A stretch of DNA of 41,875 bases, from positions 1 through 41,875 of IMG/VR virus record IMGVR_UViG_3300044533_000991, one strand, 5' to 3'. This DNA comes from a virus. Below are positions 1,653 through 41,875 of this stretch, one piece after another. The translations under genes and the position numbers were made by a program. How positions within the stretch are numbered: position 1 is the first letter of the stretch; each line of letters starts with the position of its first letter. The notes below the pieces were generated by a model that was not told the origin of the DNA, ran no database searches, and was given only the letters and a program-made list of their open reading frames with translations.

Positions 1653-2804
1653 TCACAACGGGTCGGGCTCCGTAATCAAATCATGGTAGTGCGCCCATGT
1701 GGTCTGGAACGATCCATGCCGCAGCATCCTGCTCGCCACCTCCAAGCCGCTTCGCATCGCAATCTCCGCGCCAAATTGTCCCCGCAGCGCATAGCTCACC
1801 TTGTGCCCAGGCCGGTTCACTAGAAACTTCCTCGCCCAATCATTGATCGTCCGCTGATACAAATCCTCCGCATCCGTCTGGTGCTTGCGCGGAATCACAA
1901 AATCTTCCGACTCTGGAAATGCTCCGCGCAACTGCTCCATCAATTCCCGCCGCACCGGCACCACCCCGTCGCGGCCCTTGGGAACATAGTAGGAGCCATC
2001 CGATAGTTTTCTTTTCACAAACTCCAACACAGGCCCCTTCGTCCCCTCGCGAACCCAATCCCAGCGCAGCTCCATCGTCTCGTTGTTCCTCAAACCGCAC
2101 CACCGCATCAACGCAAAGACCGCCCAAATTTTTCGATCCTCTTCTTTCTCGCTCGTCCGCAAAATTTCCGCCGCCGCTTCCATGGCCACAAGCTGCTTCG
2201 GGTCGATCACTCGAAACGGCTCCGCCTTGCCAGCCTCCGCCCCGCCCCGCCGCCGAGTCGAAAACGCCACCGCTCGAAACCCCGCCACATCGGGCAAATG
2301 CAAATCCTCGTAATAGTGCATCACTCCTGGAGCAAACATCGACTTGATCGAATTCACATCCGAACGAATCCCCGCCGCCGCCCGCCCCGCCGCCACTTGT
2401 TTCTCCACCCATTTCCGAAACCGATCCGCCCTCAAAACCTCATTGATCCGGCGACCTCCCGCCGCCTCGGTCTCAAACTCCTCGCGCACATACCGCTCAA
2501 ACCTCCCCGCGACTGCCCGCGCCGACTTCGGCCCCTTCTCCTCCCATTTTTCCGCCACCTCTTGCACGGTAGCGAACCCCTGCCGCCTCGACACCTCCTC
2601 TTGGGTCTTCGTGTCACCCGTCTTGATGGCCTCCGCCAAACGCTTCGCCACCTTCAAAGCTGTCGGCTTGTCCGATTTCGTCCTGACATCGGTGGACCGC
2701 AGATACCGCCTGCCCCGATACTGGCAGCGATAATACCAAACATGCCGGGAATCGTCCCAAGTGACCGAAACCTCCCCCCATTTCCGTTGTGATTTTTCTT
2801 TCAT
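1653..2804 (-). CDS. int: Tyrosine recombinase / phage integrase
   Basis: This enzyme would integrate and excise the phage at the tRNA-derived site lying 120 bases upstream of its start. The C-terminal catalytic domain shows box I (WCGLRNNETMELRW, catalytic Arg) and box II (YALRGQFGAEI, then MLRHGSF), ending in the nucleophile Tyr of TTWAHYHDL. The His of the usual HxxR motif reads as Tyr (YALR), which is atypical. The N-terminus has an SAM-like core-binding region (FATVQEVAEKWEEKG). I chose the ATG at 2804 (MKEKSQRKWGEV) because GGAG lies about 11 bases upstream; a GTG at 2828 would add eight residues. At 383 residues the length is normal for the family. The gene is convergent with the giant virion gene and lies next to the attachment core, as in many temperate phages. 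Confidence 0.93.
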   Translation of the reverse strand: MKEKSQRKWGEVSVTWDDSRHVWYYRCQYRGRRYLRSTDVRTKSDKPTALKVAKRLAEAIKTGDTKTQEEVSRRQGFATVQEVAEKWEEKGPKSARAVAGRFERYVREEFETEAAGGRRINEVLRADRFRKWVEKQVAAGRAAAGIRSDVNSIKSMFAPGVMHYYEDLHLPDVAGFRAVAFSTRRRGGAEAGKAEPFRVIDPKQLVAMEAAAEILRTSEKEEDRKIWAVFALMRWCGLRNNETMELRWDWVREGTKGPVLEFVKRKLSDGSYYVPKGRDGVVPVRRELMEQLRGAFPESEDFVIPRKHQTDAEDLYQRTINDWARKFLVNRPGHKVSYALRGQFGAEIAMRSGLEVASRMLRHGSFQTTWAHYHDLITEPDPL

Positions 2805-2832
2805 AAAAGTGGCCACTCCGCATGCCACTTTT
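2805..2832. promoter_or_regulatory. Perfect 9-bp inverted repeat just upstream of int
   Basis: AAAAGTGGC (2805-2813) and GCCACTTTT (2824-2832) are exact inverse copies separated by ten bases. The first arm abuts the chosen integrase ATG. Such a palindrome could be an operator for integrase control, an arm-type or excisionase site, or a hairpin masking the ribosome binding region. Only the symmetry is seen; the function is inferred. Confidence 0.5.
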
Positions 2833-5074: not shown

Positions 5075-5779
5075 GTGACCACTGAGGGAAACACCCCATT
5101 GACGCCGGACGCGCCGCCTTTTTTTTGTGCCGATTTTTCGGATGGGGTGAATGCCCCATTGGCAACGGAGATCGACTTGGAGGGCTTGGGAGAGTTGCGG
5201 GCCGAGGTGGCCTTCCCTCTTCGCTCGAATCGCTACATGAAGCAATTCCATGCCGCGAAGGCTGACGACAAGCGGAGCCGCCGTGGGATTAAGCGACTGG
5301 TGAGGCCGGAGAACGCTGCCGCGCTTGCCGAGTATTTGCCGGAGCCGGGGGAATGCACCCATGCGGTGGTGCGTGGGGATTTCGTGATGGCGGAAATCAT
5401 TCCGTTGCTTTTGGGGAATCGAGTTGCCGACTTGGTGGGGATTTCGACTCTGGGGATGAGCCGGGAGAACGCTGTGAAGCTGGCCGAGATGCTGGCCGCG
5501 GGCAAGGTGCGCCGCCTTTTTTTGCTGGTGAGCCATTATTTTTCCCAAGTCGATAAGACGGGAACCTATCGGGAGGTGAAGGGGCTACTCGGGGATGCTG
5601 TGGTGGTGGCCCGCACTCATGCGAAGGTGATCCTAGTCTCTGCCGCGCCGTCTTTTTTTGTGGTGGAGGGATCGGCCAACCTTCGTTCGAGCGACAACAT
5701 CGAGCAGTTCGCCATCTGGAATGATGAGGAGCTACTGAATTGGCATCTGGAATGGATGCAGGAGGTGCAAGGTGCCTGA
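5075..5779 (+). CDS. Phospholipase D-like (HKD-type) protein
   Basis: The 234-residue product carries HAK at residues 182-184 followed by GSAN at 199-202 (FVVEGSANLRSSDN), the spacing and sequence of one half of a PLD/HKD active site. PLD-superfamily proteins include nucleases and phosphatidyl hydrolases that usually pair two such motifs, so a single copy suggests a homodimer. The Asp expected after the HxK motif is not evident. The start is a GTG at 5075, which overlaps no neighbour; the end overlaps the next gene by eight bases. Several T7-T8 tracts occur within the coding frame. A nuclease role in early phage DNA metabolism is plausible but unproven. Confidence 0.65.
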   Translation: MTTEGNTPLTPDAPPFFCADFSDGVNAPLATEIDLEGLGELRAEVAFPLRSNRYMKQFHAAKADDKRSRRGIKRLVRPENAAALAEYLPEPGECTHAVVRGDFVMAEIIPLLLGNRVADLVGISTLGMSRENAVKLAEMLAAGKVRRLFLLVSHYFSQVDKTGTYREVKGLLGDAVVVARTHAKVILVSAAPSFFVVEGSANLRSSDNIEQFAIWNDEELLNWHLEWMQEVQGA

Positions 5780-6785
5780 GCCTTCCAACCTCAACGCGGA
5801 GATCGCGGCCAAGGTGCTCGAAGCGAATGTGCGGAACATCGTGGAGAAGGTGAAGGCCGGTGGAACGCTGAACGCCACGGAGCGGGCCATGATGGAGCAG
5901 GCCGCGACAAAGGCCGCGACGCCATTGCAGGAATCCGAAGCCGCCCTCTCCGCCGCGCCTTTTTTATTTTCTGAAGACGAAATCGGGTTTGAGAAGCTGG
6001 AAGCCACGGGAGAGTTCACAGGGGAACGCTTGCTGGCTCGCCGCCCCGAGGTTTATCGGGCCGTGGTCCGCATGGCTGCCGAGGGACAGAGCATTTCGGC
6101 TACGGCCCGGGCGCTCTCGGTGAGCCGGAACACGGTCGCCGCCGTGAGGGAGCGTGAAGGAATTTCCATAGAGCAGGAGAAAAAGGAGTTACTGAGGGAT
6201 GTTCGCCGGGCGGCTCGTCTCTCGGTGGAGAGAGCTATCGAGCTAGTGCCTTCGATCAACAGCGCCAAAGATGCCGCCATCGTCGCCGCCGTGATGGTGG
6301 ACAAGATGCAGTTGTTGTCTGGTGAGGCCACAAGCCGAGTCGAGAAGGTAGAAGTCAACCAGGACAAGCTCTCCGAAATGCTGGCTGCCTTGCCGGTCCT
6401 CGAAGCCGAGGTGGTGGATACCGGTTTACAGCCGAGCGAGTCCAGCCAAATGCCGCCCGCTGCCTCTGCCCCCGGCCTGCCCTCCCCCTTGGTTCAAGGC
6501 GCACAAAATGCGGATAGTGAAAGCGGATTGCATATTGAAGAATGCGCTGCTGTCCCGATCCGAGAAGTCGATAGTTGTAAGCCATTCAGCATCAAGACAG
6601 GTCAATTATCCACTCCGGTGATTAGTGGAAGTTATGACCTAGATAACGCCGACCAGGGGGGGGAGGGGGTCGAGAATTTTGAGGCCCCCCCATTGGATAG
6701 CACTGGTTTGGGTTCACAGAAAATTTTTGACAAAGGGGTCTCTGATGCCCCGCAGGACGCTTCGGATTCATCCACCCTACCATGA
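5772..6785 (+). CDS. Helix-turn-helix protein of the early region (337 residues)
   Basis: This protein starts with GTG inside the end of the PLD-like gene. Its middle contains a clear HTH (EGQSISATARALSVSRNTVA) followed by a charged helix (EREGISIEQEKKELLRD). The C-terminal third is a Pro/Ser/Asp-rich, probably disordered tail. HTH proteins with this layout act as transcription regulators or as small terminase subunits that recognise packaging sites. No other small-terminase candidate stands out near the large terminase at 12953, so that role is possible, but the gene lies 6 kb upstream among early genes. I cannot decide between the two. It overlaps the next gene by four bases. Confidence 0.6.
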   Translation: MPEPSNLNAEIAAKVLEANVRNIVEKVKAGGTLNATERAMMEQAATKAATPLQESEAALSAAPFLFSEDEIGFEKLEATGEFTGERLLARRPEVYRAVVRMAAEGQSISATARALSVSRNTVAAVREREGISIEQEKKELLRDVRRAARLSVERAIELVPSINSAKDAAIVAAVMVDKMQLLSGEATSRVEKVEVNQDKLSEMLAALPVLEAEVVDTGLQPSESSQMPPAASAPGLPSPLVQGAQNADSESGLHIEECAAVPIREVDSCKPFSIKTGQLSTPVISGSYDLDNADQGGEGVENFEAPPLDSTGLGSQKIFDKGVSDAPQDASDSSTLP

Positions 6786-7063
6786 GCACTAAAAAACAAA
6801 AAAACGCCGCGCTGGAGCCGTCTCCGGCTCAGGATACGCCGCCCGCCCAGCCGGTGCCGGAGTATATCACCGCCCGCCTGCTGGGGCATGAGATCAACAA
6901 GCAGTTCCTCACGCTCTCCGTTCCCGATGGGGTGGGGGGCTTCTCGCGGGTGCGGATGCGCGTGCCGCTCCGCCTTTCGCATTGCTTCAAAAAAAACGCC
7001 GTCGTCCGTGTGCGTCGCACCGACGATCCCCTTGTTGTCGAACCTTTTCCCTCGATTTTATGA
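6782..7063 (+). CDS. Hypothetical protein, early operon
   Basis: The 93-residue product has a disordered Lys/Pro/Ala-rich start and a compact C-terminal half with beta-like character (GFSRVRMRVPLRLSHCFKK, VVRVRRTDDPLVV). ATGA overlaps join it to both neighbours, so it belongs to the operon. An A8 run lies inside the frame near 6989. I recognise no family. A small nucleic-acid-binding role would fit its basic composition but is a guess. Confidence 0.6.
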   Translation: MSTKKQKNAALEPSPAQDTPPAQPVPEYITARLLGHEINKQFLTLSVPDGVGGFSRVRMRVPLRLSHCFKKNAVVRVRRTDDPLVVEPFPSIL

Positions 7064-7206
7064 AAAAACAACCCGTTACCCTCTATTCGACCGCCTCGGA
7101 ATCAGCGGCTTTATTCCGCCGATTTCTCGAAAAACAATCCCCCCGCATCACCGCCACCGCCTTTCTGGCCGCTCTCCGAGCCTTCCGCGCAAGGAGGTCC
7201 GCATGA
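7060..7206 (+). CDS. Small basic hypothetical protein
   Basis: The 48-residue frame (MKKQPVTLYSTASESAALFR) overlaps the previous stop and the next start by four bases each. It is rich in Arg, Ala and Phe and probably helical. Its last codons contain the strong AAGGAGG that serves as ribosome binding site for the following exonuclease gene. Function unknown. Confidence 0.55.
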   Translation: MKKQPVTLYSTASESAALFRRFLEKQSPRITATAFLAALRAFRARRSA

Positions 7207-7772
7207 AGGCCCGTCTTGTCGTCATTGATACCGAGACCGGCGGCCTCGATCCCGAGCGCCACGCCCTCTTGAGCGTCGCCGCCGTGGATAGCACGGATGG
7301 TGAGGCATTTGTCGGCCTCATCCGCCCCCACGCCGATTGGATCACCGAGCCCGAGGCATTGGCCAAGAACGGCTTCACCCTCGAATTTCTCGAAAAAAAC
7401 GGACGCCCCGAGCGCGAAGTCCTCCAAGACCTCGCCCTCTGGCTGGCCCAGCGCCGGTTCAGCCTCCTTGCCGGGTGCAATGTCGCCTTCGACCGCGACT
7501 TCCTCCGCGCCGCCTTCGCCCGCCACGGCATGACCTGGCCCATGAACAAGAGCGTCGATCTGCAAGCCGCCGCGTGGCTCGCCTACGAGGCCGGGCGGCT
7601 CCCGCTCCCCGAGGGCAAGGACGGCCTGCCCCGCCTCAGCCTCGACCACATCGCCGCCGCCATGGGCTTCTCGCGCAGCAGCGACACGCACAACGCCCTC
7701 GAAGACGCCCTCATGACCACGGCCTGCCTCCGCCGCCTCATCGACCGCCTACCCCCCCCGACCATTGTATGA
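7203..7772 (+). CDS. DEDDh 3'-5' exonuclease (DnaQ-like)
   Basis: The 189-residue product is a single-domain DnaQ-family exonuclease that removes nucleotides from DNA or RNA 3' ends using two metal ions. Motif Exo I is D9-T-E11 (VVIDTETGGLD). Exo II is in GCNVAFDRDFL and Exo III in the final HNALEDAL, with the His and Asp that define the DEDDh subclass. The ATG at 7203 follows AAGGAGG by six bases, the best ribosome binding site in this operon. It sits upstream of the replication genes, so proofreading or trimming during phage replication is likely. It has no polymerase domain and would act with the host polymerase. Confidence 0.88.
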   Translation: MKARLVVIDTETGGLDPERHALLSVAAVDSTDGEAFVGLIRPHADWITEPEALAKNGFTLEFLEKNGRPEREVLQDLALWLAQRRFSLLAGCNVAFDRDFLRAAFARHGMTWPMNKSVDLQAAAWLAYEAGRLPLPEGKDGLPRLSLDHIAAAMGFSRSSDTHNALEDALMTTACLRRLIDRLPPPTIV

Positions 7773-7939
7773 AAAAAAACGGCCAGCATTTCTTAGAAAC
7801 CTACGACCGCGACGACAGCCGCGCCGGTTGGAAATTCCCATCCGGAGGGGGCAAAGACATCGACGCCGCCTGCAACCGCTGGCTCGAAAAAAACACCCCA
7901 CCCTCAAAAAAGAAAAAACGCCGCTTCGGCAACTACTGA
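7769..7939 (+). CDS. Small basic hypothetical protein
   Basis: The frame encodes 56 residues, starting at an ATG that overlaps the exonuclease stop (ATGA) and continuing with an A8 run. Its C-terminus is strongly basic (PPSKKKKRRFGNY), suggesting nucleic-acid contact. It lies directly before the replication initiator-like gene. No family recognised. Confidence 0.55.
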   Translation: MKKNGQHFLETYDRDDSRAGWKFPSGGGKDIDAACNRWLEKNTPPSKKKKRRFGNY

Positions 7940-7940
7940 C

Positions 7941-8852
7941 ATGAATGCAAAAATCGAAAGCGAAATCTGGGACGACCCCGATTTCATGGAACTCCACGAC
8001 AGCGAAAAGCTCGCCGTTTTCTGGGTTCTCACCAAAGTCAACCTTCTCGGCTATGTCGAGATCACCCCTCGCAAGCTCTCCCGCGACATCGAAGCACCTT
8101 TCGATGTCATCGAAGGAGCTTGCAAGGGGCTTCCGAGGGGCTTCGTCCGCACCGAGCGCGGTGTCTGGTGCCGCAACTATATTCGCAAGCAATTCGGTTT
8201 CGGGCAGTCGCTTGTGCGTTCTCACATGGCAAAAAGCATCCGCAAGCAAATGGAGAATGTCCCCGAAGAAGTCTGCCTTTTGATTCTGAAAGAATATCCC
8301 GAAATCTCTCCATGCCCGAAGGGGCTTGGTAGCTCCTTGGAAGCTACAAGAGAAAGAGAAGGAGAAAGAGAAGGAGAAAGAGAAGGAGAAACACTTTTGC
8401 TCGAATCCGAGACTTCCACCCCGGCAACGCCCGATCCTCTCCTGACACGAATCCGAAATCTCTTCAACCTTCGAGACTCGACACCGCTCGACACTTCCTC
8501 CCTCCGAGCTTGGGAAAAAAATAAAAAAAGCGCGGCGGCCCTCACCGAAGACGAGTGGCGCACCCTCGAATGGGCCTACCGGCAAAAAGAAGGCCCCGCC
8601 GCGCAGTTCCGCCGCAAGGACTTATCCACCCTTCTGAATAACCTCCTCGCCGAAGTCACCCGCGCCCGCGATTGGGCCGCCCGCTCCGGCCACAACCCCA
8701 CCGCCGCGCCCTCCGCCCCCGTCGAACCCGCTGGCTGGCGCGACCTTATCGAGTCCGAACACCCCGAATGCAACCTCACCACCTGGGCCGCTCTCCCCGA
8801 CAGCATGAAAGCCTGGGTGCGCGAAAAACAACGCGAACTTTCCGCAGCATAA
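7941..8852 (+). CDS. Replication initiator / replisome organiser-like protein
   Basis: The N-terminal 100 residues look like the winged-helix domain of phage replication initiators (MNAKIESEIWDDPDFMELHD, LAVFWVLTKVNLLGYVEITP). A linker with three REGE repeats and an Asp/Thr/Pro-rich stretch leads to a helical C-terminal domain (LTEDEWRTLEWAYR) that may contact the helicase. Initiators of the O/DnaD type bind the origin and recruit a DnaB-family helicase, and here a DnaB-like gene lies one small gene downstream. No iterons are obvious in the gene apart from the AG-rich repeat at 8349-8391. The call rests on N-terminal similarity and gene order; I am moderately sure. Confidence 0.6.
   Translation: MNAKIESEIWDDPDFMELHDSEKLAVFWVLTKVNLLGYVEITPRKLSRDIEAPFDVIEGACKGLPRGFVRTERGVWCRNYIRKQFGFGQSLVRSHMAKSIRKQMENVPEEVCLLILKEYPEISPCPKGLGSSLEATREREGEREGEREGETLLLESETSTPATPDPLLTRIRNLFNLRDSTPLDTSSLRAWEKNKKSAAALTEDEWRTLEWAYRQKEGPAAQFRRKDLSTLLNNLLAEVTRARDWAARSGHNPTAAPSAPVEPAGWRDLIESEHPECNLTTWAALPDSMKAWVREKQRELSAA
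8349..8391 (+). repeat. 12-bp AG-rich tandem repeat inside the initiator-like gene
   Basis: About three and a half copies of GAGAAAGAGAAG encode the REGE repeats of the linker. The length is a multiple of three, so copy-number change keeps the frame. It could be a slippage product or, being purine-rich within the initiator gene, part of an origin. Confidence 0.75.
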
Positions 8853-28852: not shown

Positions 28853-30754
28853 ATGCCCGATGACGCCACCATAGTCGAAGGCGATGCCGGATTCCTCGGC
28901 ATGGCCTCCCGCCTCAACCCGCTGCAACTCCAGCCGGGCATGGTCCAATACGCCGAAAACATGCGACTCGACCGAGGCGTCGCGCAGACACGCAAAGGCG
29001 CGAAGCGACTCGGCGACGGGATCGCGGCGGGCACCCAGCCAATGGTCATGCCGTTTTTGATTGATAATTCGGCCATCATCGAAACGATTTACGAGGGCGG
29101 TATCCGCGCTTCGGGAACCTTTTCCTCGCCGAATTATTTCGATGCGAGCGAATACATTGTCCTGTGCGGGCCGACCTCGGCGTTTCTTTATCGGCAAGAT
29201 GAGCCGATTGTCGAAATCCAATACCCCAACAACGGCACGGCGGCGGATGAGGTGATCGAATTGAGCGATACGGTTTCGACCGTGCAGGCTTTCAACCGAT
29301 TTTACATTCTCCGCGAGGCCGATATGAGCGTGCCGGGCTGGGATTGGCAATACACCACCGCCTCTGGCATCGCGGTCTCGGGGACAACGGCCACGGTCCA
29401 CATCACCGCTCACGGCTATGTCGCCGGGATGCGGGTGCGGATCGAGGAGGGCAGCCAAGCGGCTTTCCAAGGCCATGAGTTCGACATCCTCGCCGCGACG
29501 GCCAATGCCTTCACCATCGCCGTGCCCGCTGGCACAGCGCCCGATGTCGCCGCCGACATCGCAATCCGCCGTGTCAAGCCGCCGCTGTGGTGGGATGGTT
29601 CTTTGAGTGAGTTTGTGCGGGCCGATGCGGGAGTCCCCGCCGCAGGCGTGACCTTCAAGACCCTGCGCTCCACCGGCTGGGCCAGCTATATCGGAAACAG
29701 ACTCTGGATTCCTGATGGCCGCGATGCCGTGGCCATATCCGATGTTCTCGACCCCGACCTCTACGACCCGTTTTTCCAGAGCTTTCGCGCCAACCAGGGC
29801 TCGAACGACTACCTCGTCGCCATTCACCCATGGGTCGAAGGCCAAGCACTGGTCTTCCTGCGCAATTCGATCTGGATTGCCAATCTCACTGACACGAGCA
29901 ACGCGACCGGCACAGATTTCGCGGTGGACTCTGCCATTTCCAAGCTAACGCTCCTGACTGACGAGATCGGCTGCGTAGCCCGCCGCTCGATCCAGACGGC
30001 AGGTCAATTTGTGTTTTTCCTCTCCGATGCCGGAGTTTACCGCCTCGATACCCAGCTCGACCTCAAGCTCCGCGCCAACACCCAGCCGCTCTCGGACCCC
30101 ATCGCCGACCAGATCGACGAGATCAACAGCGACTACGCGCACCTCGCCGTAGGCCGTTGGTGGAACAACCGCTATTACCTCGCGGTCCCAATCGGCGAGA
30201 ACGCCACGGCCAACAACACCCTTTTCTTGTGGAACGCCCTGAACTCGCAATGGGAAAGCCGCGACACCTACGCAATCAACCTCGACGAGCTACTGGTCGC
30301 CACCTACTCCAGCCAACGCCGCCTCTTTGCAGCCAGCCGCGCCGGAACGCTCTTCCTGCTCGATGAGCTGGACTACGGCGACGATGTGCCTTTTTCAAAC
30401 ACCCAAGACCTCTCCACCGACATCCCCGGCTATCTCCTGACGCGCCGCTACGGATGGGGCAGCCTCAACACCAAGCGGCTCACCCGCGCCAAAGCCTCCC
30501 TCCTGCTCCCCGCCGAAGCCTCCTGCGAACTCCGCGCCATCACCACCGACTACGACGCGGATTTCCAAGTCGCCACCCTAGCCAATACCTCGGGCGAGCA
30601 AGAAGACTACACGCTCAAAGCCCCCCTCCGCACGAAGGCGACCGGCCTCGACCTCGAATACCAAACGCTCACAGGCCGCCCGACCCTGCGCCAAATCTCT
30701 GCCGAGGCTACGCGCTCGGCCTCCGACCCCACCGAAACCCGCACCACTTCCTAA
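28853..30754 (+). CDS. Large tail protein, tail-hub or stabilisation-type
   Basis: The 633-residue product is beta-rich: it starts AGFLGMASRLNPLQLQPGMV and QYAENMRLDRGVAQTRKGA, a start shared by tail proteins that plug or stabilise podovirus tails. Long strands with Gly/Asp turns suggest a propeller-like fold. It includes RTFVWD-like sections such as YYLAVPIGENATANNTLFLW and LNSQWESRDTYAI. It lies between the metallophosphoesterase block and the AT-tipped fibre gene. No enzymatic motif is visible. Its start immediately follows the previous stop. The family name is uncertain. Confidence 0.65.
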   Translation: MPDDATIVEGDAGFLGMASRLNPLQLQPGMVQYAENMRLDRGVAQTRKGAKRLGDGIAAGTQPMVMPFLIDNSAIIETIYEGGIRASGTFSSPNYFDASEYIVLCGPTSAFLYRQDEPIVEIQYPNNGTAADEVIELSDTVSTVQAFNRFYILREADMSVPGWDWQYTTASGIAVSGTTATVHITAHGYVAGMRVRIEEGSQAAFQGHEFDILAATANAFTIAVPAGTAPDVAADIAIRRVKPPLWWDGSLSEFVRADAGVPAAGVTFKTLRSTGWASYIGNRLWIPDGRDAVAISDVLDPDLYDPFFQSFRANQGSNDYLVAIHPWVEGQALVFLRNSIWIANLTDTSNATGTDFAVDSAISKLTLLTDEIGCVARRSIQTAGQFVFFLSDAGVYRLDTQLDLKLRANTQPLSDPIADQIDEINSDYAHLAVGRWWNNRYYLAVPIGENATANNTLFLWNALNSQWESRDTYAINLDELLVATYSSQRRLFAASRAGTLFLLDELDYGDDVPFSNTQDLSTDIPGYLLTRRYGWGSLNTKRLTRAKASLLLPAEASCELRAITTDYDADFQVATLANTSGEQEDYTLKAPLRTKATGLDLEYQTLTGRPTLRQISAEATRSASDPTETRTTS

Positions 30755-32189: not shown

Positions 32190-32588
32190 ATGACCACCGC
32201 TCCCACCATGCTCCGCCCCGAGCCCTACCACGCGAACAAGCTCGCCGTGCGCCGGTCTCCGTTGCACCGGTGGGGCGTCTTTGCCACGGCTCCCATCGCC
32301 AAGCACGAAGTGCTGGAGGAGGCCCCCTACGCCTGCGTGCCCAAGAAGCAACTTGCAAAAGCCCCGGCCTGTGAGACTTACAGCTACTACCTCGACGACG
32401 CGACCAGCATCATCGGTTTCGGCCTCGCGCCGCTCTACAATCACCACGACACCCCCAATGCCTCCCACGAGATCGACCAGGTAAACGAACTCATGCGGCA
32501 CTACGCCCTGCGCGACATCGCCCCAGGCGAAGAGATCACCCTCAACTACGGCGCAGAAAACGCCAAACACTTTTTAGAAAAGGAATAA
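32190..32588 (+). CDS. SET-domain protein (lysine methyltransferase-like)
   Basis: The 132-residue product has the full order of SET-domain motifs. The start RRSPLHRWGVFATAPIAKHE contains the GxG-like WGVFA (28-32). The SAM/substrate segment LAPLYNHHDTPNAS (79-92) matches the NHxxxPN core. The C-terminal YALRDIAPGEEITLNYG (105-121) supplies GEEIT and the catalytic Tyr120. SET proteins methylate lysines using S-adenosylmethionine; targets are histones in eukaryotes and various proteins in bacteria. No pre-SET zinc cluster is seen, and the length is near minimal. It lies between a fibre and a virion-protein gene, so it may modify virion or host proteins during late infection; the target is unknown. 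Confidence 0.85.
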   Translation: MTTAPTMLRPEPYHANKLAVRRSPLHRWGVFATAPIAKHEVLEEAPYACVPKKQLAKAPACETYSYYLDDATSIIGFGLAPLYNHHDTPNASHEIDQVNELMRHYALRDIAPGEEITLNYGAENAKHFLEKE

Positions 32589-32592
32589 TCCT

Positions 32593-34836
32593 ATGGCAAT
32601 GAACATGAGCAACAGCGGCGGCGGCGGAATGTCTGGCAATAGCGCCATGTCAACAGGGTCAACCGGGTCAGCCATGTCTGGCGGAGCGATGTCTGGCGGC
32701 GGCATGAGTGGCGACCCGCTCCGCACCGGCATGTCTGTAAACCCCCGCCGCGCCCCCCGCACGCGAGATTTTGGCAATGAGTTATCAGCCATCCGAACCG
32801 CCAGCGGCCAAATCGCCCAAGATCAAGCGAACACCATTGTCGATACCGCAGGCCGCCTCAGCGACCAAGCCATCGAAAGCACCGGCGACATCGCCCAAAG
32901 GCTCGAAGACAGCACCTACACAGCCGCCGCCAATCAAAACATCCGCGACGCCGGAACCTCTGCCGCCCAGCTCGGCCAGAGCTACAACCAAGTCGGCCAG
33001 ACTGCCGACCGCGTAGCCGCCTACAACGACCCCGCCCAAGCCCGGCTGAACCAGATGGCCATGGGGCAGCTCTACCGGCCCGACCAGATTTCCTCCCAGA
33101 ATGTCGCCGCCGACCAAGTGACCGGCTCTCGCGTTGCTAATGTGGGCCAGATGGACTACGCCCGCCTCGGCCAAGTTGCCGATGTCCAAGGCCCAGCAGG
33201 CTACACGCCTGACCAAATCCGCGCCCAACGCATCCGCGCCGCTCAAGCGGGGGCCGTAGCCGATGTCAACGCCCAGCAAATAAACGCCGCCAGCACCGGA
33301 GGCATCGAGCGTGTCGGAGGCACACAGGTATCCTCGGTGGACCCCATGCAAGCCGCTCGCATCCGCCGCACACAGGATGTCGCATCCCGCGACATCCGCG
33401 CCAGTGCCGCCGAGCGTGGCCTGATGGACGAAGCCCGAGGCAATGGCCTCTACGGGCAACTCCGCGATCAAGCCAGCAACGACCTCGCCCTCGGCCGGTC
33501 CCTCTCCGCCGAGCAAAGTCGCGACGCCATCCAATCCTCCCGCGCCGCATCCTCTGCCCGTGGCCTTGGCCTCGGCCAATCCGCGATGGCCGCCGAACTC
33601 CTCAACCGTGACCGCTTCGGCACTGCCAGGGAAAACGAACGCCGCACCTTCGCTGGCAATGTCCTTGGACAAGGCACCGCCGTCCAGCAAGCCGCCAACC
33701 AAGCCTACATGGGCCGCCAAGAAAGCAATGTCGGCCGCTCACTCCAAGCAGGGCTCGCCAACCAATCCGTCGCCGCAAATCGCGCCCTCCAGCAAGCCCA
33801 GCTCCAGCAGCAGGCCAACCTTACCACCAACCAAAACGAGCAGCAGCGAGTGCTCGCCGAGGCCGGTTACGCACAACAGGCCGGTCTTTCCAACCAAAGT
33901 TTGGGTTTCCAAAGCGCAAGTCAGGACGCTCAATTTTCCCAAGCCGCAGCCCTGGCAAACCAAGACGCCTCACTTCGAGCCGCTCTGGCAAACCAATCCG
34001 CCGGTCTTAATCTCGGCCAAACAAACGCCCAGCTCTTACAGCAAAGCCGTCTCGCCAACCAATCTGCCGGTCTCCAGGCACAGCAAGCCAACCAAGCCGC
34101 CAACGCCCGAGCCCTTGAATTTGCGCAGCAGGGCGGGCTTCAAGCCTCCTTGGCAAACCAGCAAGCCGGACTCTCCCAAGCCGCCGAGCAGGCCCGCCTG
34201 CAGCAAACCGCTATTGGCGCGTCCTACGACGCATCCCAACAACGCGCCATGGCCGATGCAGGCTACGCACAGCAGGCCAACCTCGCCAACCAATCGGCCA
34301 ACCTCAACGCCGCCCAATACAACAGCAGCCAAAACCTCGCCGCGCAGCAGGCGAACCAATCGGCCAACTACAACGCCAACTACGCGAACCAAAATTTCCT
34401 GCAAGGCGTCGCCAGCCAGAACTTCAACCAATTCCAAGGCCAGCAAAGCATGCTCGGCAGTCTCTACGGCCAGCAGGCAGGCATCGCGCAAAACCAATAC
34501 GCCAACAACCTCGGCCTCGCCCAGGCCAATGTCGCCCTCGACCCCTACCAACGCGCCCTCGGATCCAACATCCCCATCGCATCCCAGGGAAACGCCGCCA
34601 ACATGATCGGCCAAGCCTACGGCCAGACCATGAACTACGGCTCCGACCTCTTCAACACCAACACCAACATGCAGGCGTCGATCTACAACAGCTTCCAAAA
34701 CAACCAAGCCGCCCTGCGCGGTGCCGGAATCCAAGCCGGAGCCTCCCGCGATGCCGGAATGATGGGCATGTTTGGCAGTATCGGCGGCGGGGCGCTGGCA
34801 GCGGGGGGAATGATTGGGGGAGCTGTTATCATCTAA
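32593..34836 (+). CDS. Gln/Ala/Asn-rich repeat protein, putative internal virion protein
   Basis: The 747-residue product begins with a Gly/Met/Ser-rich segment (MNMSNSGGGGMSGNSAMSTG), has a helical middle (FGNELSAIRTASGQIAQD and onward) and then many ANQSAGLQAQQANQ-like repeats for about 300 residues. It ends in a glycine-rich hydrophobic segment (GSIGGGALAAGGMIGGAVII). Low-complexity amphipathic repeats with a hydrophobic end are typical of internal virion proteins that line the ejection channel. It lies in a block with the SET protein and the giant protein. No enzymatic motif is visible; the role is inferred. Confidence 0.6.
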   Translation: MAMNMSNSGGGGMSGNSAMSTGSTGSAMSGGAMSGGGMSGDPLRTGMSVNPRRAPRTRDFGNELSAIRTASGQIAQDQANTIVDTAGRLSDQAIESTGDIAQRLEDSTYTAAANQNIRDAGTSAAQLGQSYNQVGQTADRVAAYNDPAQARLNQMAMGQLYRPDQISSQNVAADQVTGSRVANVGQMDYARLGQVADVQGPAGYTPDQIRAQRIRAAQAGAVADVNAQQINAASTGGIERVGGTQVSSVDPMQAARIRRTQDVASRDIRASAAERGLMDEARGNGLYGQLRDQASNDLALGRSLSAEQSRDAIQSSRAASSARGLGLGQSAMAAELLNRDRFGTARENERRTFAGNVLGQGTAVQQAANQAYMGRQESNVGRSLQAGLANQSVAANRALQQAQLQQQANLTTNQNEQQRVLAEAGYAQQAGLSNQSLGFQSASQDAQFSQAAALANQDASLRAALANQSAGLNLGQTNAQLLQQSRLANQSAGLQAQQANQAANARALEFAQQGGLQASLANQQAGLSQAAEQARLQQTAIGASYDASQQRAMADAGYAQQANLANQSANLNAAQYNSSQNLAAQQANQSANYNANYANQNFLQGVASQNFNQFQGQQSMLGSLYGQQAGIAQNQYANNLGLAQANVALDPYQRALGSNIPIASQGNAANMIGQAYGQTMNYGSDLFNTNTNMQASIYNSFQNNQAALRGAGIQAGASRDAGMMGMFGSIGGGALAAGGMIGGAVII

Positions 34837-34838
34837 AT

Positions 34839-35912
34839 ATGCAGGAACTCATCGCCAACACCGTTGACCGCATCCACGCCTGGCACACCCGATGGCCCAA
34901 CGCCGCCGTGCTTTGGAGCGGCGGGAAGGACAGCACCGCCATGCTCCATGTGCTCCTGCACTACTGCGGCATCGACCTACCTGTCGTGCAATACCGCGAG
35001 CCCAAGCTCCGCGAGCGTTACGCCTACAGCGACCGCCTCATCAAAGAATGGGGCCTCACCATTTACGATTACCCGCCGACCCGCATGGCCATCGCCGATG
35101 GGCCTGATGTGGAAAATGGCACCATGCGTTTCGACATGCTCAAGTATTACCAATGGGGCGAGACCGCTGTCGTGATGAGCCTCGGCACCGAGCGCCCCAA
35201 GCCCAGCGAAAGATTCCTCTGCGGCGTCACCGATTTCCTGCAACGCCCCACCGGCAACTTCAACTGGCCATGGGAAGCCGTGTATATCGGAACCAAATAC
35301 GAAGACACCGACCTCATCAAAGGCCATGTCCCTCTCGCGCTCGACATCCGCAATGTCCCCGGCGGCCCCGTGAGCCTCTACCCGATGCGCGATTGGAGCG
35401 ACACGGACATCTACACCTACCTCGAAGACCACGGCGTGACGCCAGACCCCACCCGCTACATCAAGACCGAAGCCGGTTGGGTCAACAACCCCGACAAATC
35501 CCTCAACGCCGACTTCTACCCCGTCTGCTTCAACTGCGTGGACCGCCACCAAGGCCCGCATGTGGATTGCCCCAAGCTCAAAGCTCGCATCAGCAACATC
35601 AGTCACCTCGCCCCCTACGAAGACATCGTTTTCCCCGACCTCGGATTTAAGCCTATATGGAATACGACTGCCAATCCTGCGGAGCCTGCTGCTCCCACAA
35701 GCGGAGCTGGCCCGTGCTCCGCCGAGATCGCTCCGACGCCACCGGCATCCCTGCCGCCTACCTCCGCACCGACTACCCCTTGCTCAAGACCGACCCCTGC
35801 GGCCGCTGCATCGCCCTCCGTGGCGAGGTGGGCCGAGGAGTCGCCTGCGCAATTTACCAACACCGTCCGCACGCCTGCCGAGCATTTGTCCCCGGAAGCC
35901 CACTCTGCTTAG
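34839..35912 (+). CDS. PAPS reductase-like PP-loop protein with extended tail
   Basis: Residues 1-275 form a PP-loop ATPase of the PAPS reductase family, with SGGKDS at 27-32 (AAVLWSGGKDSTAMLHVLLH), YREPKLRERY, SLGTERPKPSER and a C-terminal Cys cluster (PVCFNCVDRHQGPHVDCPK). This family reduces or activates sulfate, or in relatives such as DndC supplies sulfur for DNA phosphorothioation; phage members have no agreed role. The frame continues about 84 residues further as an Ala/Pro/Thr-rich tail that entirely overlaps the YkgJ-like gene in another frame. The tail lacks domain character and looks like an overprinted extension after loss of a stop. ATG two bases after the previous stop. Confidence 0.8.
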   Translation: MQELIANTVDRIHAWHTRWPNAAVLWSGGKDSTAMLHVLLHYCGIDLPVVQYREPKLRERYAYSDRLIKEWGLTIYDYPPTRMAIADGPDVENGTMRFDMLKYYQWGETAVVMSLGTERPKPSERFLCGVTDFLQRPTGNFNWPWEAVYIGTKYEDTDLIKGHVPLALDIRNVPGGPVSLYPMRDWSDTDIYTYLEDHGVTPDPTRYIKTEAGWVNNPDKSLNADFYPVCFNCVDRHQGPHVDCPKLKARISNISHLAPYEDIVFPDLGFKPIWNTTANPAEPAAPTSGAGPCSAEIAPTPPASLPPTSAPTTPCSRPTPAAAASPSVARWAEESPAQFTNTVRTPAEHLSPEAHSA

Positions 35913-36554: not shown

Positions 36555-39500
36555 ATGGCCAATCCCCTCCTCGACGCTCTTCTTGCGGATCGCTCCGCCA
36601 GCGACCCCGCATTTCCTGATCCTGCCGCCGCACCGACGCCGGAGGCGGGTGCCCGCATGATCGACTTCGCTACGGCGCTCCCCGAAGCGGAGCCTTTGTC
36701 TGGAGACGAGATCACTTTCCCTGGCGAACAAACAGCCGCGCTTGCTCCCTTCGAGGAGGTCGATAGTGAAATGGAATCGCCCGCGACCCCGGCCACCTTG
36801 CCGAGAAATCCCTTGCTCGATTCTTTGTTTGCCGACCAGCAAGCCCAAGCCGCCACCCAGCAAGCCGTCGCCGAGGCCACCACGCCCGACGACCGCCTCC
36901 CCATCGCCACGCCCGAACTCGCCGATGCCCTGGGAGTCCTCGACTACCGCGACCCACAGGAAGGCGCACGCCGTTCCCAAGCCGCCGCCCTCGGCGAAAT
37001 CCTCGGTCTCCCCGAATACGAGAAAGTCCAACTCGGAGCCGCCCCGGTGAATGCCGACGGCACCGTCACCATCCGCCGCGCCCAAGCCGTCTCCCCCGAG
37101 GCAAATGCCGCCGCTGCCAAGCAGCTTGAAAATCTGCGCATCATGGCCGCTGGCGAGATGCTCGTCGAAGAATCCCCAAAAGAAGTCGGCACCCTCCAAG
37201 GCATAGCCAACGCCGCGCAAAATGCTTTCGACTCCGCTCGCCAAGCCCTCATGGCCACCGATGGTCTAGATGAGAACGACGCCGCGCAACTCGCCCGCAT
37301 CGAATACAACAAAGCCGCCCGCCGCGTCGCCCCAGGCTACGCCGCCTACCAGCAAGCCGAAGGTTGGGATGCCGTAAAAGCCTTTGCCAAAAATCCCTTC
37401 GAGGTCTCGGCAAATATCATCACCGAAGGACTCGCCGGAAGCTGGCCCGCCCTCGCAAGCGGCCTCGCCACCGGAGCCACCACCGCCGCCGTGGCCGGAG
37501 CCGCCGGATCGGTCGTGCCCGGTGCTGGCAATGTCATCGGTGCAGGCGGAGGCTTCACCGCAGGCATGGTCGGAGGCACAGCCGCCGGTTCCTTTGCCAC
37601 AGAATACGGCAGCAAAATCCTCGAAGAATTGCAGACCGCCGGGATGAATCCCAAAAATCCCGAGAGCATCGCCCAATTTTTCAGCAACGAAACGCTCATG
37701 GCCGAAGCCAAAGACGCCGCCCTCAAGCGAGGAGTTCCCGTCGCCGCCTTCGACGCCCTCTCCGCAGGCATCGCCGGGCGAGTCGGCTCCGTCTTCCGCG
37801 CCGCCGCCAAGACCCCTGTCCGCCTCGCCGCGACAGAAGGAGTCATCCAAGGAGGGCTCGGAGCAGGTGGAGAAATCAGCGGTTCCCTCGCCGCCGGTGA
37901 TCCAGTAAACCCCAAAGCCGTCTTCGGCGAAGTCCTCGGTGAAGTCGGCCCCGCCGCCATCGAGATCGCCGCCGGACGCGCCGCCGCCGCCAGCCAGCCC
38001 GCCCCCGTGGGAACGCCGTCGTCCCCGACGGCCCCTCCGTCATCCGCTCCCATCGCCCAGCCCGCCCCCGCCGAAGTCCCCCAAAACTTCACCCCCATTT
38101 CCTCCCCCGCGCCCAGCCAGGTATCAAATGATACCTCCGCGCCCCGCACCCTCGGCCAAGTCCGCGCCCCTCAGATCGCCATCGACCAAGCCGCCCTCGA
38201 CGAAACCTTTGGCTCGACCTTCGCCCCGCCAACCGAGGTATCGACCTTCGCCCCGCCTGCCGCAGTTAACCCACAGGTTAACCCTGCGCCCGCTTCGGTT
38301 TCCGACATTCCCCCAACGGCCTCTGCTCCCGCAGCAAGCACACTCACAGCGCCTGAACCAACAGGCTCACCCGAATTGATCGCCGGGGAGGGGGCATCTG
38401 TTTCGATGCAGCCTGAGGTAAGTGCCGCGCCAATAGTTGCTCCAAAATTGGAACGAACCTCAACTGGAATGCAAATAATTAACCAAGCTGTTGAAGGCGG
38501 GGTTAATTTATCAGAACTCAATCTGTTAGAGTCGGCAATTCAACGGTTGGATAATCCAGCGGGAACAAAAATTTCAGAAGAAACAACAGCAGAGGCTATC
38601 CAGTATCTCCAATACACTCCAGAGGGTAATTCTGTTGTAGAGCACCTTCGCACCTTAGCGGCATCTAAAAATAAACGCGATAAAGGGATAAAAATAAGAT
38701 CAACTGCAATACTAAAAAGCCTTTCTGATCTTTCCCCTTCGACCGCCGTTGAGACTACCCCCGCCGCCACCGCCCCTCGCCCGTTCTCCGACCTCATGGC
38801 AGAGAACATGAAGCGCAAAGGCGAGGCCGGATACATCGACTTCGGCGTGGTGCAGGATTTCGGCCAGAGCATCTACCAAACGGGCATGGATTTCGCCGCA
38901 TGGTCTGGACGCATGGTGCAGAAGTTTGGGGAAACCATCCGCGATGTCCTCTCTTCTCTCTGGCAAGCCGTCTCCGGCGGGCAATACCTCCCTCAAGCCC
39001 GCGAGCGTGGCAGCGTAAACATTTCTCCTGGCACTGGCCCCAAGCCCCGCAAGTTCGGCCAATCCCTCCAAGCCGCCCCTGGGGTTGCGCCCGAAGTCAA
39101 AGCCCGCCTCACCTCACTGGACTACGATCCTGTCTCGAATGCCCAAACCCTCGCCAACGCCCGCGCCCGCATCGACTCGGCAGGCAGCATCGACACCGCT
39201 TTCACCGATCTCATGGGCAAGCCCGCCATCGAAGGCTGGCAGCCCACCGCCGAGGATTACGCCACCGGCATGGAACTCATGGGGCAACTCCAAAACCGAA
39301 ACCGCCATGCCGATGCCGCCTCCATCGCCAACATGATGGCCACCCGCGCCACCGACCAAGGCCGCGCCATCCAAGCCCTCTCGATGATTGGCCGCCTCGG
39401 CCCGCAAGGCATCGAGCTATTCGCCCAGAGCCAACTCCAAGCCGCCGCCACCAAGCCCGCCAAGACCGACAAGCAGAAGGCCGATATCCAAGCCAAGATC

Positions 39501-41875
39501 ACCGAGGCCGGGCAGTTGCAAGGCGAAGTGGACAAGCTCCGCCGCGACTCCACTACCGCAGCCATCGTCGGCAATAAAGACCTCATCAAATCCTCGCTCC
39601 CCGCCGGAGTCGATGCCGTGCAGGTGAACATCGCCATCCGCGAAGCGATCCTCGGCGCACCTACGCCTCTCGCCGCTCAAGCCGCAACCTCATCCATCCT
39701 CACCGGCCAAGGTCTCTCCGACAAAGGAGCCGCCCGCATCTCCGGCAGCATCGTCCGCGACTTCCTCAAGACCACACAGGACACCCGCGCCAAAGTCCTC
39801 CAAGACCTCCTCGCCACCGCCGATTCCGACCGCCGCCTGGATAAATCCAAGCTCGGCTCCCTCATCCGCCTCAACCGCGAAGGCAAGCTCACCGATGCCA
39901 GCCTCCACGCAGGCATGGCCAAGATGCTTGGCATCCCGCATTGGAGCGCCGAGCACAGCGCCAAGGTCCGCCGCATCCTCGCCCAGCACGAGAAAGCCAC
40001 CGACCCTCGCATCAAGCTCGTCAAAGCCGCCGAAGCCCTCGATGTCGTTTACCGCGACTTCATGCCGCCGGGCTTCCTCGACAAAGTGGACACCATTCAG
40101 ACCATCGCCATGCTACTGAACCCCAAAACGGTGATCCGAAATGTAGTTGGCAACGCTCTCATGGCCGGGGCCGACCTCGCCGCCGATACCGTCTCTGTGC
40201 CGATGGATGCCTTGGTTTCCCTGGGAACCGGCGAGCGCACCCGCACCGGCCTTTCACTCGGTGAACGCCTCATGGGCCTCGGAGCCGGGGTAGGGGACAT
40301 CAAAGCAGGCTACGACTTCGCCCGCTCCGAAGGCCGTGGCCGCATCGGAAGCATCGCCGAGGGTGTCGATACCCTCGTCCGCCTCGGCCGCCTGCAATCC
40401 TCGGGCAAATACAACTCCTCCGACATCTCCGCCCTCAGCGGCCCCACCTTTACCGCCCCGGTCCTCCGCCAACTGGAATCCACTCTTGGCCTCGCCCTTT
40501 CTATCACCGACCGGGGTTTCTACGAATCCGCCTTCCGCGCCAGCCTCGACACCCGCATGAAAGCTGCCGCCGCCAGTGGCAACCCCATGCTCGCCCCTGA
40601 TACTGACATGGTGACAGCCGCCCGCATGGATGCTGGCCGCGCCATTTACCAGGACGATAACGCCGCCAGCCGCACACTGGGCGGACTCCGCCGCGTCCTT
40701 AATTTCAATCAACGCTGGGGCATCGGCTCCCTACTGATGAAATTTACCCAAGTCCCTGGCTCGATCCTCACCCGCGCCGTGGAATTTTCCCCGCTTGGAT
40801 TCATCAATACCGCCTACCAAAGCCTCGCGCCGATGCTCTCCAGCTCCCGCGAGTTCGACCAGAAAGCCTTCACCGACTCTTTCTCCCGCGCCCTCGTCGG
40901 CACCACCGGCCTCGTCGCCACCGGCTACTGGCTCGCCCACCTCGGGATCATCTCCGCTGGCAGCGACGCCAAGGACGAAGACAAGCGAAACCTCAACCGC
41001 GCCACCGGATGGGGAGCCTACAAACTCAACACCAGCGCCCTCAAACGCGCCCTCATGACCGGCAATTTCTGGACCCCGCAGAAACAGCAGCGCGACGACA
41101 TGGTAATCGGCTACGATTGGGCGCAACCCCTCTCCATCGGCGTCGCCATGGGTGCCTACTCCCGAGAGAATCAAGAGGCCATCAAGCAAGACATCCTCGC
41201 AGGCAAGAAGCAAAGCCTCGCCGCAACCGGCCTCAACTGGCTCGCCTACGCAGGCGGCGCAGCTACCGGAGCCATGAACTCCCTGGTCGAACAACCCCTC
41301 CTCACCGGCCTTAATCAATTCGCCCGCGATGTCGGCTACGACAACATCCCCGGTGCTCTCCTCAAAACCGCCGCCGACGCTCCCGGCACCTTCATCCCCA
41401 CCGCCGCCCGGCAATGGATGCAACTGACCGACAACGCCGCCCGCGAAACCCGCGACAGCTCCCCGGCTCGCCAATTCATCAACGAACTCAAAGCCCAGCT
41501 CCCCGGCCAAAGCCAAACCCTCCCGCCGAAATACGACATCGCCGGGCAACCCGTCGAGCGGTGGGCCAAGGACAGCAACACGCTCTTCAATGTCCTCTTC
41601 AACCCCTCGATGGTCTCCTACATCAAAGGCAGCCCAGCGCTCACGGAGATGAGCCAGGTTTACAAATACACCGCCGAGACCGGAGCCATCCCCAACCAGG
41701 TCAAACCGGAGTTCACCCTCGAAGGCGTCAAGGTCCGCCTCAGCTCCGAAGAGATCAGCGCCATGCAGAAAGACATGGGAGCCCTCAGCATCGCCGCGCT
41801 GGAGAAGTTCGTCCTCTCCGATCCCCGCTACGACAAAGCCACATGGGACGCCAAAGCCCGCGCCATGACCCGCGC
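36555..41875 (+). CDS. Giant virion-associated protein (partial at 3' end)
   Basis: One uninterrupted frame from the ATG at 36555 runs off the window after at least 1773 residues; the left-end copy suggests about 1822 in all. It has an Ala/Pro/Glu-rich N-terminus, a hydrophobic Gly/Ala block (PALASGLATGATTAAVAGAA, then GNVIGAGGGFTAG) that may span membranes, a Pro/Ser/Ala linker near residue 500, and an AT-rich insert (38435-38740). Then come a conserved-looking core (FSDLMAENMKRKGEAGYIDF, WSGRMVQKFGETI), long helices, and the C-terminal part shared with the left end. Size, position and mixed domains fit an ejection or 'large polyvalent' protein. No catalytic motif is certain. Confidence 0.8.
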   Translation, partial: MANPLLDALLADRSASDPAFPDPAAAPTPEAGARMIDFATALPEAEPLSGDEITFPGEQTAALAPFEEVDSEMESPATPATLPRNPLLDSLFADQQAQAATQQAVAEATTPDDRLPIATPELADALGVLDYRDPQEGARRSQAAALGEILGLPEYEKVQLGAAPVNADGTVTIRRAQAVSPEANAAAAKQLENLRIMAAGEMLVEESPKEVGTLQGIANAAQNAFDSARQALMATDGLDENDAAQLARIEYNKAARRVAPGYAAYQQAEGWDAVKAFAKNPFEVSANIITEGLAGSWPALASGLATGATTAAVAGAAGSVVPGAGNVIGAGGGFTAGMVGGTAAGSFATEYGSKILEELQTAGMNPKNPESIAQFFSNETLMAEAKDAALKRGVPVAAFDALSAGIAGRVGSVFRAAAKTPVRLAATEGVIQGGLGAGGEISGSLAAGDPVNPKAVFGEVLGEVGPAAIEIAAGRAAAASQPAPVGTPSSPTAPPSSAPIAQPAPAEVPQNFTPISSPAPSQVSNDTSAPRTLGQVRAPQIAIDQAALDETFGSTFAPPTEVSTFAPPAAVNPQVNPAPASVSDIPPTASAPAASTLTAPEPTGSPELIAGEGASVSMQPEVSAAPIVAPKLERTSTGMQIINQAVEGGVNLSELNLLESAIQRLDNPAGTKISEETTAEAIQYLQYTPEGNSVVEHLRTLAASKNKRDKGIKIRSTAILKSLSDLSPSTAVETTPAATAPRPFSDLMAENMKRKGEAGYIDFGVVQDFGQSIYQTGMDFAAWSGRMVQKFGETIRDVLSSLWQAVSGGQYLPQARERGSVNISPGTGPKPRKFGQSLQAAPGVAPEVKARLTSLDYDPVSNAQTLANARARIDSAGSIDTAFTDLMGKPAIEGWQPTAEDYATGMELMGQLQNRNRHADAASIANMMATRATDQGRAIQALSMIGRLGPQGIELFAQSQLQAAATKPAKTDKQKADIQAKITEAGQLQGEVDKLRRDSTTAAIVGNKDLIKSSLPAGVDAVQVNIAIREAILGAPTPLAAQAATSSILTGQGLSDKGAARISGSIVRDFLKTTQDTRAKVLQDLLATADSDRRLDKSKLGSLIRLNREGKLTDASLHAGMAKMLGIPHWSAEHSAKVRRILAQHEKATDPRIKLVKAAEALDVVYRDFMPPGFLDKVDTIQTIAMLLNPKTVIRNVVGNALMAGADLAADTVSVPMDALVSLGTGERTRTGLSLGERLMGLGAGVGDIKAGYDFARSEGRGRIGSIAEGVDTLVRLGRLQSSGKYNSSDISALSGPTFTAPVLRQLESTLGLALSITDRGFYESAFRASLDTRMKAAAASGNPMLAPDTDMVTAARMDAGRAIYQDDNAASRTLGGLRRVLNFNQRWGIGSLLMKFTQVPGSILTRAVEFSPLGFINTAYQSLAPMLSSSREFDQKAFTDSFSRALVGTTGLVATGYWLAHLGIISAGSDAKDEDKRNLNRATGWGAYKLNTSALKRALMTGNFWTPQKQQRDDMVIGYDWAQPLSIGVAMGAYSRENQEAIKQDILAGKKQSLAATGLNWLAYAGGAATGAMNSLVEQPLLTGLNQFARDVGYDNIPGALLKTAADAPGTFIPTAARQWMQLTDNAARETRDSSPARQFINELKAQLPGQSQTLPPKYDIAGQPVERWAKDSNTLFNVLFNPSMVSYIKGSPALTEMSQVYKYTAETGAIPNQVKPEFTLEGVKVRLSSEEISAMQKDMGALSIAALEKFVLSDPRYDKATWDAKARAMTR
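40372..41875 (+). repeat. Right copy of the diverged 1.5-kb duplication
   Basis: It aligns with 1-1504 without net indels. It is the in-frame 3' part of the giant gene, and the window ends before the stop that the left copy shows at 1647-1649. Confidence 0.9.

Follow-up and report, generated by a model that had tools for sequence, protein, structure and literature searches.

A minimal SET domain encoded among the virion genes of a phage raises the question of what such a methyltransferase does there, and whether its neighbours have any part in it. The window analysed here is the whole of IMG/VR virus record IMGVR_UViG_3300044533_000991 (41,875 nucleotides), in which the SET gene lies between a tail-fibre-like gene and a gene, here called c2, whose product begins with an array of methionine-serine units. 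The SET gene is intact and conserved, it is strictly paired with the array, and in the array methionine stands where relatives that lack the enzyme have lysine. This strict pairing is the main point of the locus, and it was missed in an earlier sequence-only reading of the same DNA. The pairing itself is well supported; docking of the enzyme on the array is what we infer by analogy with the lysine-to-methionine (K-to-M) traps of eukaryotes. The features concerned, with positions in the window, are:

28853..30754, plus strand: conserved structural gene, head closure Hc3-like (weak PHROG matches to virion proteins and Hc3; homologous to the head closure gene of phage C75C1)
30756..32186, plus strand: tail-fibre-like gene directly 5' of the SET gene (PTR and tail PHROGs)
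32190..32588, plus strand: minimal SET-domain protein, vSET-like, 132 aa (Pfam SET, PDB, AlphaFold, Foldseek/VIA, dN/dS)
32271..32276, plus strand: codons of W28-G29, SAM-binding GxG-type motif (HRWGVFA), invariant in 21 sequences
32379..32381, plus strand: codon of Y64, active-site Tyr, invariant and aligned to vSET Y50
32439..32444, plus strand: codons of N84-H85, NH[S/H] motif of SET domains, invariant in 21 sequences
32547..32552, plus strand: codons of Y120-G121, catalytic Tyr motif, invariant and aligned to vSET Y105
32593..34836, plus strand: c2, the partner protein (747 aa), rich in Ala and Gln and free of lysine, with a Gly-rich hydrophobic C-terminus (probable virion protein by position and composition)
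32593..32751, plus strand: small-residue Met-Ser array in the first 53 residues of c2, seven [A/G/N]-M-S units, no lysine

The open reading frame at exactly 32190-32588 is the sole SET found in the whole record. It matches Pfam SET (PF00856) with an E value of 1.1e-13 and 52 bits (cut-off 22.4) over profile positions 2-105 of 105, and the domain spans residues 28-121 of the 132-aa protein with no pre-SET or post-SET, as in the minimal vSET type. A PDB sequence search places the vSET of Paramecium bursaria chlorella virus 1 (PBCV-1) at the top (E 3.1e-13), with W28 aligned to Y16, Y64 to Y50, and Y120 to Y105. The AlphaFold2 model (mean pLDDT 86, pTM 0.77) also has vSET as its top Foldseek match (3kma, E 1.3e-9, TM by target 0.86), and VIA-align gives tied Z scores for S. 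pombe Set7 (15.1), Plasmodium PFL0690c (14.6), and vSET (14.5). The sequence-only reading had proposed a minimal SET domain with all core motifs and the catalytic Tyr, and the profile search and structure prediction that it suggested both agree with this. It had named loss of the SAM-binding and Tyr residues in homologues as grounds against the assignment; W28-G29, E44, Y64, N84-H85, and Y120-G121 are instead invariant in 21 diverse SET homologues, and the third residue of the NH motif is His in the window (NHH) and Ser in most relatives (NHS).

The frame is not a chance one, because more than 130 relatives are found in IMG/VR and close relatives show purifying selection, with a mean dN of 0.025 against a dS of 0.31 (dN/dS ~0.08, in a sample chosen by peptide identity, so that dN is somewhat underestimated). 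Judged from its sequence and its model, the gene looks real and seemingly functional, and enzyme activity is predicted. The window gene starts after TCTAAACC and has no clear ribosome-binding site, which makes translational coupling to the upstream fibre gene likely; in relatives, the SET start often overlaps the fibre stop (ATGA).

The record also encodes an SU10-type capsid gene, TerL, DnaB, and an exonuclease. The nearest named phage by capsid is C75C1 (33.7%), in which head closure Hc3 is followed by the tail fibre and a giant gene, with no SET. Positions 3-1649 of the window encode, for a second time and almost unchanged, the C-terminal end region of the giant ORF at 36555-41875. The ends of the record overlap imperfectly, as if it had been closed over strain variants, so the real genome size is probably ~40.3 kb. 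Relatives of TerL occur in 11 of 388 Verrucomicrobiota genomes and in none of 297 Acidobacteriota genomes, which by sequence makes a Verrucomicrobiota host plausible. Verrucomicrobiota prophages have TerL, a portal-like gene and, in part, the capsid and Hc3 in common with the phage; prophage copies of this SET are not evident in the 388 genomes, which give weak matches only (best E 1e-15). An integrase-like gene (tyrosine recombinase look-alike, 1653-2828, minus strand) has similar genes in Verrucomicrobiota contigs with related TerL, and with these counterparts the phage may be temperate. A PAPS-reductase-like gene at 34839-35912 lies within the late structural block and is kept in relatives with and without SET.

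Phage SET proteins were said to be little described, and database searches bear this out. Among 50,697 phage records, a single huge-phage genome (two records) matches the SET well, and there is one very weak match, the annotated SET gene of Stenotrophomonas phage Ps15. The SET has no match in PHROGs, and for the SET and its partners PHROGs, NCBIfam, and INPHARED yield no family or named phage except those given here. In the open-access literature, phage SET is known from annotation alone, and no dedicated study was found. A survey of gene neighbourhoods, as had been advised, places the gene of the relatives in the late structural block, with the order Hc3, fibre, SET, c2 constant in most of ~59 loci.

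The sequence-only reading was right about the tail fibre upstream, but its internal virion protein downstream was a guess, the 747-aa c2 having no family match in Pfam or PHROGs. The position of c2 within the late block is conserved, and from this place and its composition c2 is a probable virion protein. It had further been suggested that the SET methylates virion proteins; for the neighbour in the window this is rejected, since its 747 residues include no lysine to be methylated. Methylation of other virion proteins is possible, and so is the injected effector that was also raised, a role that fits the model favoured below. Sequence alone does not point to a host target.

The seven units of the window array are all codon-distinct (7/7), so the protein motif and not a DNA repeat is kept, and a pure DNA minisatellite is rejected for the window. 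Some other arrays (L257, L267, L031) are minisatellite-like in part, with recently copied units. Arrays of the window clade contain 17.8% Met, with Leu at 0.55%, Lys and Ile at 0.03% each, and neither Val nor Phe. Met is the only larger residue that is common in them, which would not be expected from flexibility or hydrophobicity in general. Arrays reach as many as 29 tandem units.

The SET is an accessory gene in phages with the same neighbours, and relatives without it (SET-minus) therefore provide a natural control for those that carry it (SET-plus). A scan seeded with Hc3 yielded 49 loci with SET, 17 long enough without it, and 14 that were too short, a sample seeded from SET-plus phages in which the SET-plus fraction is inflated. 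In SET-minus loci the fibre gene, or one extra small gene, is followed by a c2 homologue or by a different protein in its place, which often starts with MGKKKKSKQEAPPPP or similar. The c2 N-terminus of SET-plus phages is an array, for example MAMNMSNSGGGGGMSGGGGGAMSAAPAMSAP. AMS tripeptides number 7.4 per c2 in SET-plus phages (0.5 expected after shuffling) and 0.27 in SET-minus phages (0.22 expected), and mean c2 lysine is 0.28% versus 2.87%. The SET-minus N-terminus is usually lysine-rich (KKKKSK), whereas Met-Ser arrays are found in SET-plus phages, and in c2 of the MGKKKK type the lysine difference lies mostly in the first ~75 residues. A purge of lysine from the whole of c2 after the arrival of SET is therefore rejected. 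A general lysine purge in SET phages is rejected as well, since only c2 clearly differs; the fibre, Hc3, the PAPS-like protein, and others do not.

The Hc3 gene was used as a neutral marker for a tree of 76 contigs. On this tree, SET presence requires 9 changes, at least 6 of them forced by strongly supported branches. The array, by a score set only after the first arrays had been seen, is present in 53/53 SET-plus contigs with data and absent from 16/16 SET-minus contigs, and the independent contrasts agree in 6 of 6 cases (sign test p 0.031). A second scan, seeded with the c2 core and having many contigs in common with the Hc3 scan, finds the array in 48/48 SET-plus contigs and a KK-rich N-terminus in 9/9 SET-minus homologues; two further remote matches were uninformative. 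The c2-core tree interleaves SET-plus and SET-minus proteins, and a single clade is rejected (AU p 2.9e-5), so the core is shared, and the N-terminus changes on it together with SET. Because the SET gene lies right next to the start of c2, the two can be exchanged as a unit, and such joint transfer accounts for part of the association. Orphan arrays, which simple deletion of SET should leave behind, were not seen in either scan. Four SET-minus loci (L137, L162, L181, L182) have other small genes between fibre and c2, for example of 117-135 aa with WERARNWHDDHTTEPFESLL, and by these the slot looks like an accessory-gene hot spot.

Arrays also recur beside SET in other phages. When all ORFs of distant SET loci were scanned, 4 arrays were found in 1,260 frames, each in a gene adjoining SET, against none in 1,164 background frames. 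Further scans gave array-scoring ORFs in 19 of 36 new loci, nearly always in the gene beside SET; further SET contigs read at length contained no strong array away from SET, and one unrelated ORF at the bare array threshold. The array frame of podovirus-type loci (L257, L258, L263, L267, L268, L272) begins at most 4 bp from SET, the array gene of the L306 type lies 104 bp downstream of it, and the L340 type is another kind of array-bearing SET locus. The L306 array protein (5488-8394) has only 3 lysines in ~968 aa and is lysine-poor like the window c2.

A scan on the partner C-terminus makes the podovirus-type loci a second, unrelated family with controls, in which the array is present in 8/8 SET-plus and 0/51 SET-minus contigs. 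One contig, L366, was set aside; it starts inside an array, so that its SET would be expected beyond the contig end and the exception is only apparent. The N-terminal 70 residues of the partner contain 9.5% Met and 0% Lys in SET-plus phages versus 0.2% Met and 10.6% Lys in SET-minus phages, whose rows are diverse and not all alignable. Some SET-minus partners have a glycine-rich array that contains lysine (GGGGNKPSGGGG in L350, L352, and L355; GGGAKASAPSGGSSLPAGFSGGG in L372), and SET-plus L053 has GGAMSSGGSALPPGFSGGG at the corresponding place. NKPS or AKAS in some SET-minus phages is exchanged for AMSS in SET-plus phages. In both families Met stands where enzyme-free homologues have Lys, the exact column alignment being loose in such low-complexity sequence, and neither family shows an orphan array or an array-less SET.

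T7-like SET phages also have an array beside SET, and in T4-like SET phages it forms the C-terminus of the upstream structural protein. VrlC of four cultured Kyanoviridae is encoded by a single gene of ~2,500-2,600 aa with no array. In SET-plus L072 the VrlC family is split over two genes (PHROG 358 positions 186-1396 and 1421-2055), and between the halves lie the array, a chaperone-like end, and SET. Three T4-like phages (L308, L309, L311) are exceptions, being SET-plus with a proline-rich linker and one GGMGMS and no full array. The split structural protein 5' of SET in these three has, by eye, a stretch like an intein C-terminus (VKITVDDAHTYICEGLLSHN).

In the SET tree every array-linked SET, together with that of L308, falls into one group (support 83), and vSET sits on a long branch of unsure place. 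An early-region SET clade (L074-L081, L330) lies near DNA polymerase and integrase genes, and L333 groups with these. No Met array was found in this clade or in the SET class of the huge phage. As the array-linked SETs cluster and the other classes are array-free, a single late-gene SET lineage has spread across different phages, and the array travels with it on different partner proteins. The early-region clade may have another role. A reverse scan by DNA pattern returned Met-Gly arrays in viral contigs L415, L417, and L429 with no SET in the excerpt; the proposition that an array always implies SET is thus unsupported, and such arrays may have other uses.

Several known systems bear on how the pairing could work. 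The closest enzyme is vSET (A612L of PBCV-1), like the window SET a viral minimal SET without pre-SET or post-SET, and ~31-33% identical to it in structural alignments. It differs in that the phage has a host without histones, and the Met-array partner is a feature seen on the phage side of the comparison. Histone H3K27 specificity and a dimeric form are further marks of the vSET type. Packaging of vSET by PBCV-1 has been reported (PMC7019647). Go1-SET of the archaeon Methanosarcina mazei is reported to methylate the DNA-binding protein MC1-alpha (PMC3980110); likened here by its published activity, it is a prokaryotic SET enzyme too, but a cellular gene. Bacterial SET proteins (L083-L088) have the fold in common with the phage SET at 28-35% identity, but are chromosomal MAG genes, most of them outside the phage clade, and several end in a Cys-rich segment that the phage SET does not have. 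Of the two other phage-encoded enzymes, the SET of huge phage LR756501 (40% identity) belongs to a separate YYGxxxYW-type class without array, and that of Ps15 is ~29% identical.

The array itself resembles eukaryotic K-to-M traps. H3K9M binds and traps the Clr4 SET domain in a SAM-dependent manner (PMC5030085), and EZHIP inhibits PRC2 through M406 in disordered flanks, where M406K turns it into a substrate (PMC6513997). Like the phage array, these traps have Met where the substrate has Lys, within a disordered segment flanked by repeats (PMC6513997, PMC5030085). The eukaryotic examples usually have one Met site, whereas the phages have tandem arrays adjoining the SET gene, with binding that is putative.

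How the phage SET is bound, packaged, and delivered, and to what end, we infer as follows from sequence and predicted structure. The SET gene and the Gly/Ala/Ser-rich Met-Ser N-terminus of its neighbour would be two halves of one module, in which the array mimics the SET substrate with methionine in lysine's stead. With SAM present, Met side chains would enter the channel meant for lysine and keep the enzyme bound but not turning over, and the many units would give a virion or ejection protein docking sites for several SET molecules. Docked SET would be kept quiet during virion assembly in the producer cell, be carried by the virion into the next host and, once freed, may methylate lysines in a target that belongs to the host or to a rival phage. 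We favour docking or restraint on the array and carriage in the virion because Met at a substrate lysine traps SET enzymes and PBCV-1 packages vSET. That an active vSET-like lysine methyltransferase is docked, restrained, or packaged by a Lys-to-Met pseudosubstrate array is put forward tentatively, as possible and somewhat short of an even chance. The recurrence of the pairing beside SET in unrelated phages, the Lys/Met exchange, and the codon-distinct units count for it; the three T4-like phages without a full array, the array-free early-region clade, and the Met-Gly arrays without SET count against it. In T4-like phages the protein with the array is structural and external, a poor fit for ejection. 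A broader claim, of a mobile two-part phage system in which SET is joined by an adjacent Met array in place of a lysine tail and the array serves either as a multivalent K-to-M decoy that loads or restrains the enzyme or as a Met-methylated sulfonium substrate, is nearly an even bet.

The foremost alternative is that the SET is an ordinary accessory effector that methylates host or virion lysines, and that the array is unrelated to it, serving adhesion, flexibility, or assembly and linked to it only physically. The shared movement of SET and the adjoining array-coding end on one c2 core would be expected in that case, and the array-free early-region SETs and the Met-Gly arrays with no SET found nearby agree with it. 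It is nevertheless unlikely, as arrays accompany SET on more than one kind of partner protein and may lie to either side of the gene, and the two controlled families show each element only with the other.

Less likely still is a form of self-immunity, in which the SET methylates related virion proteins, such as those of co-infecting rivals, at their lysine-rich tails or arrays, or similar host motifs, and a lysine-free array lets the SET phage escape, with no need for the array to bind the enzyme. This accounts for the KKKKSK, NKPS, or AKAS of SET-minus phages where SET-plus phages have no lysine, and for a lysine loss limited to c2. Loss of lysine predicts neither Met specifically nor tandem expansion to 29 units, however, and some SET-plus c2 proteins retain a KK pair, as podovirus-type partners retain 6-9 lysines outside the array. 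Methylation of the array methionines to sulfonium cations, which would restore the charge given by the SET-minus lysines, explains the recurrent Met, the lysine loss at the same place, and the co-occurrence of enzyme and array, but is highly improbable, as the phage SET retains the Tyr residues that lysine-methylating SETs typically have in the active site, and no SET enzyme is known to methylate Met.

Trapping by lysine-to-methionine exchange is so far known from cancer histones and mammalian EZHIP. Should phages place tandem K-to-M arrays next to their own SET genes, the trick would be widely used outside chromatin. The array would then reveal the local sequence preferred by the SET, and the targets of phage and prokaryotic SET enzymes would become testable by a Met-to-Lys swap. 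Another possible role of the array is that of a multivalent tag by which the phage particle carries the enzyme. Even if docking fails, it would still need explaining why unrelated phages so strictly gain and lose a Met array along with a methyltransferase gene. Whether decoy or sulfonium array, it would, if true, be a new viral way to control or use a methyltransferase.
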